Positions 24,253 to 42,580 of a DNA stretch of 64,000 nt are shown piece after piece (within the stretch, counting starts at the first letter, position 1; each line of letters starts with the position of its first letter). Under the pieces are notes generated by a model, which saw nothing but the letters and a program-made list of their open reading frames with translations, did no database searches and was not told the DNA's origin. The DNA is taken from the NCBI RefSeq assembly GCF_000169175.1, contig NZ_AAWS01000007.1:155001-219000 (forward strand), written 5' to 3'. The DNA is from Microscilla marina ATCC 23134. GTDB lineage: Bacteria; Bacteroidota; Bacteroidia; Cytophagales; Microscillaceae. The translations under genes were made by a program, and so were the position numbers.

Positions 24253-24460
24253 TATTTTATTTTTATGATCCAAAGAGTGAATAGTAACACAAACTAATGT
24301 CTTTTGTAGGTTATTTTCAAACCATTCGTTTGAAAAATGCTCAACAATTCTTATGTTTAAGAATAGCCTCATTGAAATTAATACTCCACCGTTTTTTCGG
24401 TTTGATAGTTTTTTTTATTCAGGCTCAAAACACTTCACTACAATTTGGTGATGGCATCCT

Positions 24461-24698
24461 AACTAGTGCATTAGGGATTAAATAAGTTGCCTATTAATTT
24501 GGATGAATTAACTACGTTGAGCTCGCGAAAAGCTCGGTTTTGTTTTCTGACGAGTCGTGAAAATGGCGGATAGTTCGCTTTCTGAATTCCGATGCATATC
24601 GGAACCTTAGCTATCTAACTTTTTTACGAGGAAGTCAGGGGGCAAAAGTCGCCAAATAATATGTGAGTAACTTAGTACCTGATGCACTAGTACCTTAA
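24461..24698. mobile_element. MITE-like element A with terminal inverted repeats
   Basis: An element of about 238 bases without a gene. Its ends are imperfect inverted repeats with a 10-base identical core (ACTAGTGCAT at 24462-24471 and its complement ATGCACTAGT at 24682-24691). It contains a 49-base block (24504-24552) repeated exactly in element B, with a small hairpin GAGCT...AGCTC. It shares its right end with element B. Confidence 0.55.
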
Positions 24699-24885
24699 AC
24701 ATTGAGTAAATGCCCTTTTATTTGGGGTGAATTAACTACGTTGAGCTCGCGAAAAGCTCGGTTTTGTTTTCTGACGCACTTCAAAAATCGCGCATAGCCT
24801 TAGCTACGCAAGTTTTTTTAAGTAAAGTCAGTGGGCAAAAATCGCCGAAATAACGGGTTAGGTATTTAGTGGTTAAGGTACTAGT
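24686..24885. mobile_element. MITE-like element B with 13-bp terminal inverted repeats
   Basis: A 200-base element bounded by a perfect 13-bp inverted repeat (ACTAGTACCTTAA at 24686-24698 and TTAAGGTACTAGT at 24873-24885). It contains the same 49-base block as element A (24728-24776) and an inner inverted segment around GCATAGCCTTAGCTACGC. No transposase is present. It resembles the elements at 45298-45832 in its inner segment. Confidence 0.6.
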
Positions 24886-25133
24886 ACTTAGTCAATGATT
24901 GAATTAGGAATGAAGTTTAGTGAAACACTACTTGGCTTTTCAACGAAGAAGGACAAAGCCATTATGCAAACATGTCCTTAAATTTGGTCTTGGCGAAGTA
25001 ATGGTAAGTTTAACTATACCTCTCACTAACAAAGTTATAAACTTGTTAGTGGCTAGTGGAACAGGGTAAACCTGGAGCCCTGCCAAGGCTGTAGATTATT
25101 ATAAAATAGCTAACAAAAACAAATAGATCAAGT

Positions 25134-26096
25134 ATGGAACCAACATTTATTGCCATTTTGGTGGCATCCATAATAGGCTTTTTTGCCTTTATGTATTTCG
25201 TACCTGTCAATCTCTGGATTACAGCAATATTTTCTGGAGTAAAGGTAAACCTCTTCCAACTGGTTTTTATGCGTATTAGACGGGTGCCCCCCAGCACTGT
25301 AGTCAACTCGCTGATTACCGCTACTAAAGCAGGTTTGGAGCTTACCGCTGATGATCTTGAAACACACTACTTGGCAGGTGGGCATGTACCATCAGTTATT
25401 CGTGCCTTGATTTCAGCAAACAAAGCTAATATTCAGCTTTCGTTTAAGCAAGCTACAGCCATTGACCTGGCTGGTCGTAATGTATTTGAAGCTGTACAAA
25501 CCTCTGTAACACCTAAAGTAATCAATACTCCACCAGTGGCAGCTGTGTCGCAAGATGGGATTCAATTGATTGCCAAAGCCAGGGTAACCGTAAGAACCAA
25601 CATTGCCCAATTGGTAGGAGGAGCTGGTGAAGACACCATTATAGCCAGGGTAGGCGAAGGTATCGTAACCTCTATTGGTTCTTCGGGCAACCACAAAGAA
25701 GTACTTGAAAATCCAGACGGTATATCAAAACTAGTATTAGCAAAGGGCTTAGATGCAGGTAGTGCTTTTGAGATTTTATCTATTGATATTGCCGATATAG
25801 ATATAGGAGAAAACATTGGGGCAAAGTTACAAACTGAACAAGCCCAAGCAGATCTGAAAATTGCCAACGCCAAAGCCGAAGAGCGACGGGCAATGGCGGT
25901 AGCCAACGAGCAGGAAATGATTGCTAAAGCCCAGGAAGCCCGCGCCAAAGTAATTGAAGCCGAAGCAGAGATTCCTAAAGCTATTTCGTCGGCATTCAAC
26001 AATGGTAATTTAGGTATTATGGATTACTACCGAATGAAAAACATAGAAGCCGATACCGATATGCGTGACTCTATCTCTAAGGGAGAAGGAGGTTGA
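25134..26096 (+). CDS. floA: Flotillin-like protein FloA (SPFH family)
   Basis: A 320-residue membrane scaffold protein. An N-terminal hydrophobic hairpin (about 5-28) is followed by the SPFH/band-7 domain and a coiled coil rich in E, A and K (about 240-300; [20 protein letters not shown]). Signatures of the FloA (former UPF0365/YqfA) family are [45 protein letters not shown] and [20 protein letters not shown]. Length and composition are normal for FloA. Known role of the family: organising functional membrane microdomains. It is monocistronic here and no NfeD-type partner lies next to it. Confidence 0.95.
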
Positions 26097-26197
26097 TAAT
26101 GTAGAGTTGTTGGATGTGTAGGTGGCTTTGTGTTAAAATTCAATAAGCCATTACGCTCGAAAAATTTAAAAATATTTTTTTCATAAGCAATTTATTA

Positions 26198-26238
26198 AAA
26201 GCTTTGCCGAACAATTGAGTTCAGCAAGGCTTTTTTTG
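26198..26238 (+). terminator. Terminator after floA
   Basis: A stem AGCTTTGCCGAAC with GTTCAGCAAGGCT (two imperfect pairs), six-base loop, followed by seven T. It lies about 100 bases after the floA stop. Confidence 0.8.
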
Positions 26239-26370
26239 TACAAGCCCTTGAACTTTTTGAAAAATAATAGTACAAGAATAACATAGCCATTGGTAGTACT
26301 TTAGTATACCTAACCCTGGTTGCTTGAGATTTATAACTACAAATGCTATAGACCAAACACGACAATATAA

Positions 26371-27081
26371 ATGCAAAATTTAGCCAAATACATAGTTATT
26401 ATTACCCTGCTGATGTGTCAGGCATGTAGCAAATCATCGGAGGCATTTTTAGAAAAAGGACGTACATTTATGCAAGAAGGTAACTTTAAAGAAGCAGTGC
26501 GTTATTTTAATTGGGCAGTAGAAAAAGATGCACAAAGCTATGCCGCTTTTAATGCCAGAGGTGCCGCTTATTTTAGCCTGAAAGATTATGACAATGCCTT
26601 GTTAGACTTTAACCAGTCTATAAAGTTAAACGATAAAGATTATAAGGCGTTTATGAACCGAGGCAACGTAAGACGTGAAACCAACGACTTAAAAGGTGCT
26701 TTGGCAGACTATACCCAAGCCCTTCCATTGAATAATAATGTGCCTGATTTGTACCTAAACCGAGGGGTAGTAAATGCCCAACTGCAAAACTACGATGCAG
26801 CTTTGAAGGACTTTAATGAAGTAATCAAAAGAAATAAGCAAAATAAAAACGCCTATTACAACCGAGGCAATATTTTGTACACTCAAAAAAAGTTTAAAGA
26901 AGCTATTGCTGATTTTAGAACAGCAGTACAACTAGATGCCCGCTTTGCCAAGGCTTTGTATGCTTTAGGTATGGCCGAACTGTTGGCAGACAAAAAAGAG
27001 GATGCTTGTATGCACCTTAAGCAAGCCGCCAACCTGAATCATCCTCAAGCAGATGGAAAAGTAATCGAATATTGTAAGTAG
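26371..27081 (+). CDS. TPR-repeat lipoprotein
   Basis: A 236-residue protein with an N-terminal hydrophobic segment ending at cysteine (LLMCQAC, C19), a probable lipoprotein signal. The rest is five to six tandem TPR units (about 25-225), for example AFNARGAAYFSLKDYDNALL, FMNRGNVRRETNDLKGALA and YYNRGNILYTQKKFKEAIA. Such proteins usually act as periplasmic or outer-membrane assembly scaffolds. It is monocistronic and is followed by a 107-bp tandem repeat array. Confidence 0.88.
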   Translation: MQNLAKYIVIITLLMCQACSKSSEAFLEKGRTFMQEGNFKEAVRYFNWAVEKDAQSYAAFNARGAAYFSLKDYDNALLDFNQSIKLNDKDYKAFMNRGNVRRETNDLKGALADYTQALPLNNNVPDLYLNRGVVNAQLQNYDAALKDFNEVIKRNKQNKNAYYNRGNILYTQKKFKEAIADFRTAVQLDARFAKALYALGMAELLADKKEDACMHLKQAANLNHPQADGKVIEYCK

Positions 27082-27236
27082 TTGTTGTGGGAAAAAACGT
27101 AGTTAACTTGTTCGATAGCTGCTACAGCCTCAAGCTTTGAACTGCTCTTCAAGTCTATTACCGATTTTATAGAACGCTGATTTTCTGCGTCAATTCGTAA
27201 TTAAAATCGTAAATACCCTTGGAATTGGCTTACTCA

Positions 27237-27771
27237 TTCGTAATTCCCAAATTCGTAATTTATATGAATAGTATAGTATGCGCTTTATAACGCTCACAAT
27301 TGAAAAAAATCGTAATTAGCTTCGCAGAGCTCCCTACGGTCGGTTCGTAATTCCCAAATTCGTAATTTATATGAATAGTATAGTATGCGCTTTATAACGC
27401 TCACAATTGAAAAAAATCGTAATTAGCTTCGCAGAGCTCCCTACGGTTGGTTCGTAATTCCCAAATTCGTAATTTATATGAATAGTATAGTATGCGCTTT
27501 ATAACGCTCACAATTGAAAAAATCGTAATTAGCTTCGCAGAGCTCCCTACGATCGGTTCGTAATTCCCAAATTCGTAATTTATATGAATAGTATAGTATG
27601 CGCTTTATAACGCTCACAATTGAAAAAATCGTAATTAGCTTCGCAGAGCTCCCTACGATCGGTTCGTAATTCCCAAATTCGTAATTTATATGAATAGTAT
27701 AGTATGCGCTTTATAACGCTCACAATTGAAAAAAATCGTAATTCGTAATTCCCAAATTCGTAATTTATATG
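27237..27771. repeat. Tandem 107-bp repeat array ending at a gene start
   Basis: Four complete units of 107, 107, 106 and 106 bases begin at 27237, 27344, 27451 and 27557. A shortened fifth unit begins at 27663 (79 bases), and a final 30-base stub begins at 27742. Each unit starts TTCGTAATTCCCAAATTCG and has an ATG at offset 27. In the last stub that ATG (27769) is the start codon of the GT2 gene. The copies are nearly identical, differing mainly in A-run length and one or two bases, so the expansion is recent. Confidence 0.95.
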
Positions 27772-28641
27772 AAGGTTTCAGGATTTAGTTTTGTGCGCAA
27801 TGCGGTCAAGTTAGACTACCCTATTGTAGAAGCCATTACTTCGGTATTGCCTATATGCGATGAGTTTGTAATAGCTATAGGCGACTCAGAAGATGAAACA
27901 CTCGAACTGATTCGGTCTATTGATTCTCCTAAAATAAAAATTATAGAAACCGTGTGGGATGATCGCCTGCGAGAAGGAGGGAGGGTGTTGGCTGTAGAAA
28001 CCGATAAAGCTTTTGCGGCACTTGCCGAAGACTCCGACTGGGCGTTTTACATCCAAGGCGACGAAGTGATACATGAACAATACCTTGACAATGTAAAGCA
28101 AGCAATGCTCAAGTACAAAGACAACCCCAAAATAGATGGGTTGTTGTTTAAGTACCAACACTTTTATGGTTCTTATGATTATGTGGCAGACTCGCGCAAG
28201 TGGTATCGGCGTGAAATAAGAGTGGTGCGCAATCGCAAAGATATTTTTGCTTACCGCGATGCTCAAGGTTTTCGTAAACAACCTAACGATAAGTTGCGCG
28301 TAAAATTGATTGATGCCTACATTTATCACTATGGTTGGGTGCGCGAGCCCGACAAGCAACAAGATAAACAAAGGGCTTTTCATAGCCTGTGGAAAAACGA
28401 TGACGAGGTAGCCCAGTTTGTAGGACAAGCCAGCGAGTTTGATTACTCTAACATTGACTCATTGAGCGTGTTTAAAGGTACCCACCCCAAAGTGATGCAA
28501 GCTCGCATTGACCGTATGAACTGGAAGTTTGACCACGACATTGCCAAAAAGAACTATTCGGCAAGAGTGGCATTTCTTACGATGGTAGAAAAGCTTACTG
28601 GGTGGCGCATTGGTGAGTATAAAAATTACAAAGTGGTATGA
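27769..28641 (+). CDS. Family 2 glycosyltransferase
   Basis: A 290-residue soluble GT-A fold enzyme. The N-terminus MKVSGFSFVRNAVKLDYP and ICDEFVIAIGDSEDETLELI form the nucleotide-sugar binding part, and FYIQGDEVIHEQYLD holds the likely metal-binding acidic cluster (DSDW then QGDEV). There are no membrane segments. The start codon lies in the last, truncated copy of a 107-bp tandem array, so the array forms the whole 5' leader. A hairpin follows the stop. It probably decorates a surface polysaccharide; the acceptor is unknown. Confidence 0.85.
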   Translation: MKVSGFSFVRNAVKLDYPIVEAITSVLPICDEFVIAIGDSEDETLELIRSIDSPKIKIIETVWDDRLREGGRVLAVETDKAFAALAEDSDWAFYIQGDEVIHEQYLDNVKQAMLKYKDNPKIDGLLFKYQHFYGSYDYVADSRKWYRREIRVVRNRKDIFAYRDAQGFRKQPNDKLRVKLIDAYIYHYGWVREPDKQQDKQRAFHSLWKNDDEVAQFVGQASEFDYSNIDSLSVFKGTHPKVMQARIDRMNWKFDHDIAKKNYSARVAFLTMVEKLTGWRIGEYKNYKVV

Positions 28642-41782: not shown

Positions 41783-42580
41783 ATGTTTAGAATAGAACAG
41801 TTAAATAAAGCAGAACTTATAGAGTATTGTAAAAAAATAGGTATCGAGGAGGTCGTTGGTAAAAGCAAAGAAGAGCTAAAAACAGCTATTAGTATTCATT
41901 TTGATAATGAGGTATTAGGGTCTATAACTTCAGGTCAGGCAACGAGCTTATTAACTCAAAAAATTGAATTGCTTGCAGAAGAATATGCCGCTAATCTGCA
42001 ACTTAAAGTTTTGAAGCGTAAGCAAGAAATGATAAACGATGATAATTCACATTATTTAATATATCGTGTGTTAGGCATTGCTAGACAAGAAGGGAGGTTG
42101 ATAGATGAATATCAAAATACAGGTCGTTTTTTATATAAATATGCAGGTTCTTTTCTCGAAGAAGCAACTTCAATATGTTTGAAGTTTAATAATCTTAAAG
42201 GTGGTAAAAGATTTGTGAAAAATACTCAAGGTAAAAAGCCTAAAAATTTTGAAATAGACTTTGTAGATGGACAATATGCCTTTGAGATTAAGTGGAGGGA
42301 TGCCACTACAGATGGTGATCATATTACCAAAGAACATACTAGAATACAGGTAGTCAAAAGTCAGGGGTATATACCAGTTCGCATTATGTTTTATTACCCT
42401 CAAAGATTACAAGCACAAAAAATACAGGCAACTTTAAAAACTTTGTATACAGGTGTTGGAGGAACGTATTATGTGGGTGATGATGCCTGGAGTTTTGTTC
42501 GGGAGCATACAGGCTATGATTTAAAAAGTATATTGATAAATATTGCAAATAAACGAATGCCAGAAAATGGAAGTAAATAA
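41783..42580 (+). CDS. Type II restriction endonuclease (ApaLI-like)
   Basis: A 265-residue endonuclease. The core has a PD-(D/E)XK arrangement: FEIDFVDG with D159, then YAFEIKWRD with E168 and K170, followed by DGDHITKEHTRIQV. The flanking FLYKYAGSFLEEA and VGGTYYVGDDAWSFVREHTGYDL match my recollection of the ApaLI family (which cuts GTGCAC), but the recognition site cannot be read from the sequence. It overlaps the methyltransferase start by 14 bases, as is typical of a restriction-modification operon. Base composition is clearly lower in G+C than the neighbours, which suggests horizontal transfer. Confidence 0.75.
   Translation: MFRIEQLNKAELIEYCKKIGIEEVVGKSKEELKTAISIHFDNEVLGSITSGQATSLLTQKIELLAEEYAANLQLKVLKRKQEMINDDNSHYLIYRVLGIARQEGRLIDEYQNTGRFLYKYAGSFLEEATSICLKFNNLKGGKRFVKNTQGKKPKNFEIDFVDGQYAFEIKWRDATTDGDHITKEHTRIQVVKSQGYIPVRIMFYYPQRLQAQKIQATLKTLYTGVGGTYYVGDDAWSFVREHTGYDLKSILINIANKRMPENGSK

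Follow-up and report, generated by a model that had tools for sequence, protein, structure and literature searches.

A tandem array reaching a glycosyltransferase start codon in Microscilla marina combines a dispersed heptamer repeat family with a locus-specific core

At bacterial VNTR or minisatellite loci, long units of nearly the same sequence stand in tandem and vary from one relative to another. The short tandem heptamer repeats of cyanobacteria, reportedly described by Elhai et al. in 2008, are said to occupy many sites per genome and to have small dispersed repeats among them. MIRUs of mycobacteria are reported to insert at start codons and to carry an open reading frame (ORF) coupled to the following gene at -4 nt (PMC12548453). 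Direct repeats of TAACTGA are recorded from Beggiatoaceae, Cyanobacteria and five Bacteroidetes, where they are intergenic and in some cases lie directly before starts; roles in translation or rearrangement have been proposed for them (PMC4679880). In searches of the open-licence literature, none of the titles listed for Microscilla marina concerned repeats of this kind, and no paper containing the exact heptamer runs was returned.

The window analysed here is the whole 64,000-bp stretch of contig NZ_AAWS01000007.1 of M. marina ATCC 23134. TRF detects a tandem array at 27237-27743 (period 106/107, 4.8 copies, 98% match, score 979), bearing out the array of about 107 bp in the original prediction; besides this array, which is also reported at double period, only one minor array (42109-42154) was detected in the 64 kb. 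Modules were defined by cutting at the heptamer CGTAATT, a joint chosen by us, and the features are as follows.

26371..27081, plus strand: upstream TPR-repeat protein gene, on the same strand as the glycosyltransferase (GT) gene
27194..27236, plus strand: imperfect family sequence 5' of the first unit (TTCGTAATTAAAATCGTAAATACCC...)
27237..27743, plus strand: tandem array, 4.8 units of 107/106 bp, (A-core-B)x4 and then A-core-heptamer (from TRF, unit comparison and the cut at CGTAATT)
27239-27253, 27346-27360, 27453-27467, 27559-27573, 27665-27679, 27744-27758, plus strand: A module, CGTAATT + 8 (15 bp), 6 copies
27254-27310, 27361-27417, 27468-27523, 27574-27629, 27680-27736, plus strand: core module, 5 copies (57 or 56 bp), found at this locus only in both genomes
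27311-27345, 27418-27452, 27524-27558, 27630-27664, plus strand: B module, 4 copies (35 bp), variants of which are dispersed in the genome
27680..27768, plus strand: terminal block of last core, bare heptamer, A, and heptamer + TAT, up to the start codon
27769..28641, plus strand: glycosyltransferase gene, GT-A fold (predicted), GT2-like, 290 aa, ATG start

Cut in this way, the unit is a mosaic of a 15-bp A, a 56/57-bp core and a 35-bp B. The unit lengths are 107, 107, 106 and 106 bp, followed by a partial unit of 81 bp. No difference separates units 3 and 4, and the remaining full units are 1-2 substitutions apart with at most one A of difference in an A run. ATGAA is present at all six positions that had been predicted to carry an ATG (27264, 27371, 27478, 27584, 27690 and 27769). 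The sixth ATG had been placed in the same phase as the others, which holds for its position within the repeat and fails for reading frame: the spacings of 107, 107, 106, 106 and 79 bp equal 2, 2, 1, 1 and 1 modulo 3, and since none is a multiple of three, the array ATGs are in register with the repeat and not with the reading frame. The last step measures 79 bp because the last copy lacks the B module. The ORF that begins at an array ATG is in every case just 8 codons long, MNSIVCAL. The sixth copy, at the gene start, has 33 bp in common with the units, and 24 of these fit the pattern TTCGTAATT-N6-TTCGTAATT.

The start of the GT gene itself fits its homologues: in an alignment of the window sequence with 34 loci chosen from 80, each begun at its first matched residue and therefore not a blind test, M1 is invariant across the 35 sequences and K2 is present in at least 90%. 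Sequence profiles give a sub-threshold match to Pfam Glyco_tranf_2_4 (E 0.0097), no match in an NCBIfam scan of the protein, and GmaR in a PDB sequence search (E 0.0012). The predicted structure (pLDDT 92.3, pTM 0.90) returns glycosyltransferases for all of its ten top Foldseek matches, with SunS first (E 2.6e-11), and the matches include ThuS, TarS, chondroitin polymerase and SpsA, which together with SunS we take to be GT-A enzymes. The model thus predicts a glycosyltransferase of GT-A fold. Relatives of it are encoded in 567 stretches of the genome collection and a match was found in 27 of the 37 genomes searched (own included); this is a broadly conserved GT-A enzyme, and its assignment to a surface sugar is a guess. 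Within flanks of up to 4 kb at 80 loci, the congener was the only one in which GT had TPR (searched at E up to 1e-15) or FloA and PMT (both at E up to 1e-5) beside it. A conserved operon of GT with the TPR gene was considered and rejected, the two being adjacent only in the congener among those 80 loci.

The two kinds of DNA in the unit have different distributions. Used as a query against its own genome, the unit gives 111 matches at E up to 10, of which 6 are the window array; the rest extend over portions of A or B, and many are weak. The exact B form of the window is absent from the other fetched loci, which hold variants of it instead; B-like sequence is found at 40 of 50 own loci and 4 of 18 congener loci, where 32 of the 50 had been picked via B/unit matches and the 18 via an A-type pattern. 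For the signature pair TTCGTAATT-N6-TTCGTAATT there are 178 occurrences in the own genome and 133 in that of the congener, its reversed control gives 0 matches, and of 295 further Bacteroidota genomes in the sample one has the pair, as a single match. With a query of 60 nt covering B+A, matches came from 2 genomes out of 57, the own and that of the congener. Together these counts suggest that the repeat family is close to genus-specific within the genomes sampled. The core, by comparison, has no comparable match off the locus in either genome (next best E = 0.095), which supports the reading that locus-specific leader DNA beside the GT start was amplified. The original prediction had derived the unit, as a probable origin, from the gene's own leader; in the light of these matches this needs amending, since A (15 bp) and B (35 bp), about half of the 107-bp unit, are dispersed family sequence.

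The heptamer CGTAATT, which mostly occurs as TTCGTAATT, forms the tandem runs by which STRR/SDR-like intergenic repeats are recognised: among 453 heptamer-to-heptamer steps of up to 160 bp at the 50 own loci, 103 are 7 bp and 172 are 15 bp. An unselected background of 400 kb from three contigs (C7 without the window, C4 and C5) contains only 7 occurrences of TTCGTAATT and no cluster of three, so the arrays are discrete places. Several other repeats were seen at or near them. B-type module variants (GCCAAGGC, GCTAAAGC and GCGTACGC) that take the same place at many loci appear self-complementary. Words such as TAGTCCAGAGTCGGTAGTCGGTAGACC recur between heptamers in both species, at L015, L022, L028 and L039 and at congener loci. 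At L009, L012, L019, L020, L033 and L036, TTTAGCCTTTAGCTTTT and its complement form tandem runs of several periods near the heptamer arrays. L024 (contig C95 of G000) holds CRISPR-like arrays at 1600-2448, with a constant stretch GTTTCAATCCTTGTTTTAATGGAAG and a period of 73-74, beside a 276-bp tandem repeat at 801-1397.

A comparison of related strains had been suggested as a check; the congener shows an array of a different build. The congener GT protein is 99% identical and the 20-kb region about 91-94% identical at the DNA level, so the two genomes are close yet distinct. The orthologous TPR-GT gap is 358 bp in the congener versus 687 bp in the window, with 4 and 5 cores respectively, in the order B-core-B-core-hept-core-core-hept-A-ATG versus (A-core-B)x4-A-core-hept-A-ATG. 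In both species the order of modules switches at CGTAATT, the joint that we chose: B leads into A in the window and into core in the congener, and what comes after core is B, a bare heptamer or another core. Congener core ATGs are spaced by 93, 64 and 57 bp and then by 79 bp to the gene start, the last step being 79 bp in both species. From these two genomes the array appears to change over time, its build and copy number differing between close species. The cores also carry species-specific bases, GTATAGTATG in all five window copies versus GCATAGAATG in all four congener copies, one of the latter with a further change (GCATAGAATA); either homogenisation of the copies within a lineage or a separate amplification of the core in the two lineages would give this pattern.

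The block next to the gene is shared by the two species. Its core-heptamer-A-ATG order and its 89-bp length are the same in the congener, and 85 of the 89 bases are identical. These 4 mismatches per 89 compare with 17 per 274 in the FloA-TPR gap and 11 per 58 in the GT-PMT gap, and with fourfold-site differences of 9/105 in GT, 12/78 in TPR, 59/243 in PMT and 48/154 in FloA. The terminal block seems slow by substitution, and since its rate is close to that of the FloA-TPR gap and below that of fourfold sites, some mild constraint on it is possible.

Change in length between genes is not peculiar to this locus. Across 14 syntenic gaps in 20 kb, the array gap included and ORF ends called mechanically, length is unchanged in 6, shifted by 1 and 6 bp in another 2, and shifted by at least 18 bp in the remaining 6. 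With 6 of 14 gaps shifted to that extent, the length change of the array does not look special; gap change appears common in the genus and the array one form of it. The largest change, greater than that of the array gap, is at 24373-25133. There the window has, at 24475-24942, a 468-bp stretch between congener-aligned segments; it is pieced together from a different dispersed repeat, possibly MITE-like, which matches the own genome at 61 places. Five other array pairs, those aligned on both sides out of the 15 orthologous matches listed, differ in interval length in every case (331/435, 48/541, 472/576, 453/530 and 451/176 bp), the first alignment of the L014/L221 pair entering the array so that its 48/541 bp covers the array in part. 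The heptamer count differs in four of the five.

We consider it likely that the GT leader was invaded by the genus repeat family, and that slippage or unequal exchange then amplified a piece with the locus-specific core in a nearly neutral fashion. A family whose modules meet at CGTAATT would have entered the leader, and direct repeats of 9 to 33 bp at the module joints, and later the 107-bp units themselves, would be substrates for slippage or unequal exchange that duplicates and deletes the piece holding the 56/57-bp core. The copy adjoining the gene bears the 33 bp ending in ATGAA that is present in each unit, and exchanges would restore an intact start. Because the gene start shares these 33 bp with every unit, gains and losses should keep both the ATG and the frame, and because exchanges regenerate the start, the array could grow and shrink at little cost. 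Its plain effect would be to lengthen the leader and to multiply the short ORFs ahead of the gene. Both the exchange mechanism and the near-neutrality are what we infer from the arrangement of the repeats. The core is likely a remnant of the ancestral leader, a reading drawn from the congener gap, which is nearly all family DNA and core: outside family DNA, the core is the sole locus-specific DNA there except for about 20 bp after the TPR stop. In the window the core is not the sole candidate for the old leader, as 27082-27193 (about 110 bp from the TPR stop to the first heptamer) is not family DNA and has no clear congener alignment.

Among the alternatives, we regard as unlikely a phase or dosage variation in which each unit supplies a promoter, an operator or an upstream ORF that regulates the GT gene, and unit number tunes expression between cells. 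The near-identity of the units, two of which agree in full, suggests that change was recent, the two species differ in the number and build of their units, and the core is nearly the only locus-specific DNA in the congener gap (besides the 20 bp or so after the TPR stop), all of which would suit such a role. A -7-like word, TAGCTTCG, matches 5 of 6 positions of the Bacteroidota motif and is present in the four B modules; against this, the full two-part motif occurs once only, at 27108, outside the array (shuffle mean 0.58), and the congener has neither the full motif nor the -7-like word. There are 6 sigma-70-like sites, all on the minus strand and 5 of them in cores, a number not clearly above chance (shuffles 3.1, sd 1.8). 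A promoter in the core found no backing, consensus scans having recognised none on the plus strand. The ATG and frame are moreover independent of unit number, the start-proximal block is kept in both species, the enzyme is conserved across the 567 stretches, and the genes beside ten other stop-anchored arrays (10 chosen of 52) show no clear surface theme: they include histidinol dehydrogenase, phytoene/squalene synthase, signal peptidase, a symporter and an epimerase-family protein. In contingency repeats a change of units shifts the reading frame, whereas here the ATG and the coding sequence lie outside the variable part in both species. The phase variation proposed for the gene therefore does not find support, given an intact ATG and frame, no recognised plus-strand promoter in the core, a retained terminal block and a widely conserved enzyme; on/off switching of GT by the array is not supported by these comparisons, and any effect on expression should be graded.

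Other readings start from the polarity of the family, which was counted on 125 blocks of at least two like-oriented heptamers from 50 own loci (L009-L040, L188-L205) and 18 congener loci (L206-L223). The count excludes blocks of fewer than two heptamers, ORFs below 90 aa and ORFs lying at least 30% inside a block; the window array and its congener copy are outside it. In the sense of TTCGTAATT, and within -30 to +40 bp, the 3' end of a block meets a stop codon in 52 cases, a start codon in 5 and neither in 68. A gene boundary thus lies at the 3' end in 57 of 125 blocks versus 2 of 125 for the 5' end, with a binomial p of 6e-15 that is too small given the shared ancestry and choice of the loci. 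The 50 own loci are a non-random set (32 by unit match and 18 by the 24-bp pattern among the matches listed), the 18 congener loci were taken from the matches listed, L027 and L197 overlap by about 900 bp, and some own and congener loci are orthologous. The GT array belongs with the minority that ends at a start codon. Individual loci add two arrangements to the picture: where genes converge, as at L028, both stops are end points of blocks, which are oriented oppositely, and at L190 and L211 orthologous arrays end 15-18 bp before the called start (ATGAAAAATCTC), the sequence from last heptamer to ATG being different.

A further reading posits a dedicated process of the genus, run by a recombinase or by copying from the ends of RNAs, in which TTCGTAATT is recognised, modules are assembled on it in one fixed direction from gene ends, and unique DNA nearby is captured between two heptamers. 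We think this improbable; if true, it would mean that such a process captured and multiplied the native leader at the GT start codon.

Quite improbable, too, is the reading that the family arrays are 3' elements of genes (a terminator, an mRNA stabiliser or a preferred insertion site), with the window array standing before a start by exception. The preponderance of stops at block 3' ends and the near absence of gene boundaries at 5' ends are what would be expected of 3' elements, and the stops themselves are credible: 8 of 10 stop-anchored ORFs scanned have Pfam domains, the histidinol dehydrogenase being matched to residue 442 of 443, so at least those eight are real genes. The reading leaves unexplained the GT locus, where the array reaches a start. 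The window array is without a terminator-like site, none having been found in 27060-27800, and the folding of the unit RNA is unremarkable (z -1.41, 17 of 200 shuffles as good). The B region forms a hairpin of -9.1 kcal/mol (z -1.37, 13 of 200), the core gives a z of 0.05 and the leader-start region 0.40. As for the stable palindrome typical of REP/BIME elements, the B hairpin stands beside 0 inverted repeat pairs of at least 12 bp in 26900-28000. A structured RNA in the unit was rejected on its z score and on the lack of an Rfam match in 24300-28000.

We hold as very improbable a MIRU-like mobile unit that inserts at start codons with its own small ORF coupled to the gene. In its favour, two tandem genes have between them a tandem array with units of about 100 bp, which reaches a start codon, and every unit holds small ORFs; MIRUs are likewise reported at start codons (PMC12548453). 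Against it, of the two ATG-initiated ORFs in the last unit MNSIVCAL stops 52 nt and MRFITLTIEKNRNS 20 nt short of the GT start, with equal distances in the congener, a TTG-initiated frame overlaps that start by 20 nt and not by 4, and the core occurs nowhere else.

For the GT gene itself, an invaded leader amplified by slippage or unequal exchange may be of small consequence. A lineage-specific family of repeats would have remade the DNA in front of a conserved gene and left that gene intact, and a family with strong polarity towards gene ends raises a testable question of how its mosaics form. Set against described systems, the array is like VNTR loci in its tandem near-identical units, the difference in number being seen here between two species with one genome each (5 versus 4 cores). 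Like MIRUs, it consists of intergenic units at a start codon, but it differs from them in having no ORF coupled at -4 nt and in a unit that is a three-module mosaic (PMC12548453); the closest of the ATG-initiated unit ORFs stops 20 nt short of the start, and MIRU-type coupling was rejected. With the TAACTGA repeats it shares intergenic heptamers that in some cases lie directly before start codons, yet in the described Beggiatoaceae genome those repeats are mostly just before starts, whereas the boundary 3' ends in Microscilla are mostly at stops, 52 of 57 (PMC4679880). Membership in that group was rejected, the heptamer here being CGTAATT and not TAACTGA. A likeness to the cyanobacterial repeats, as these are reportedly described, lies in intergenic heptamer runs with small dispersed modules, and the differences lie in another sequence and phylum, a fixed polarity to gene ends and the co-amplification of locus-specific DNA. 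In our judgement the array resembles the heptamer-based intergenic repeats.
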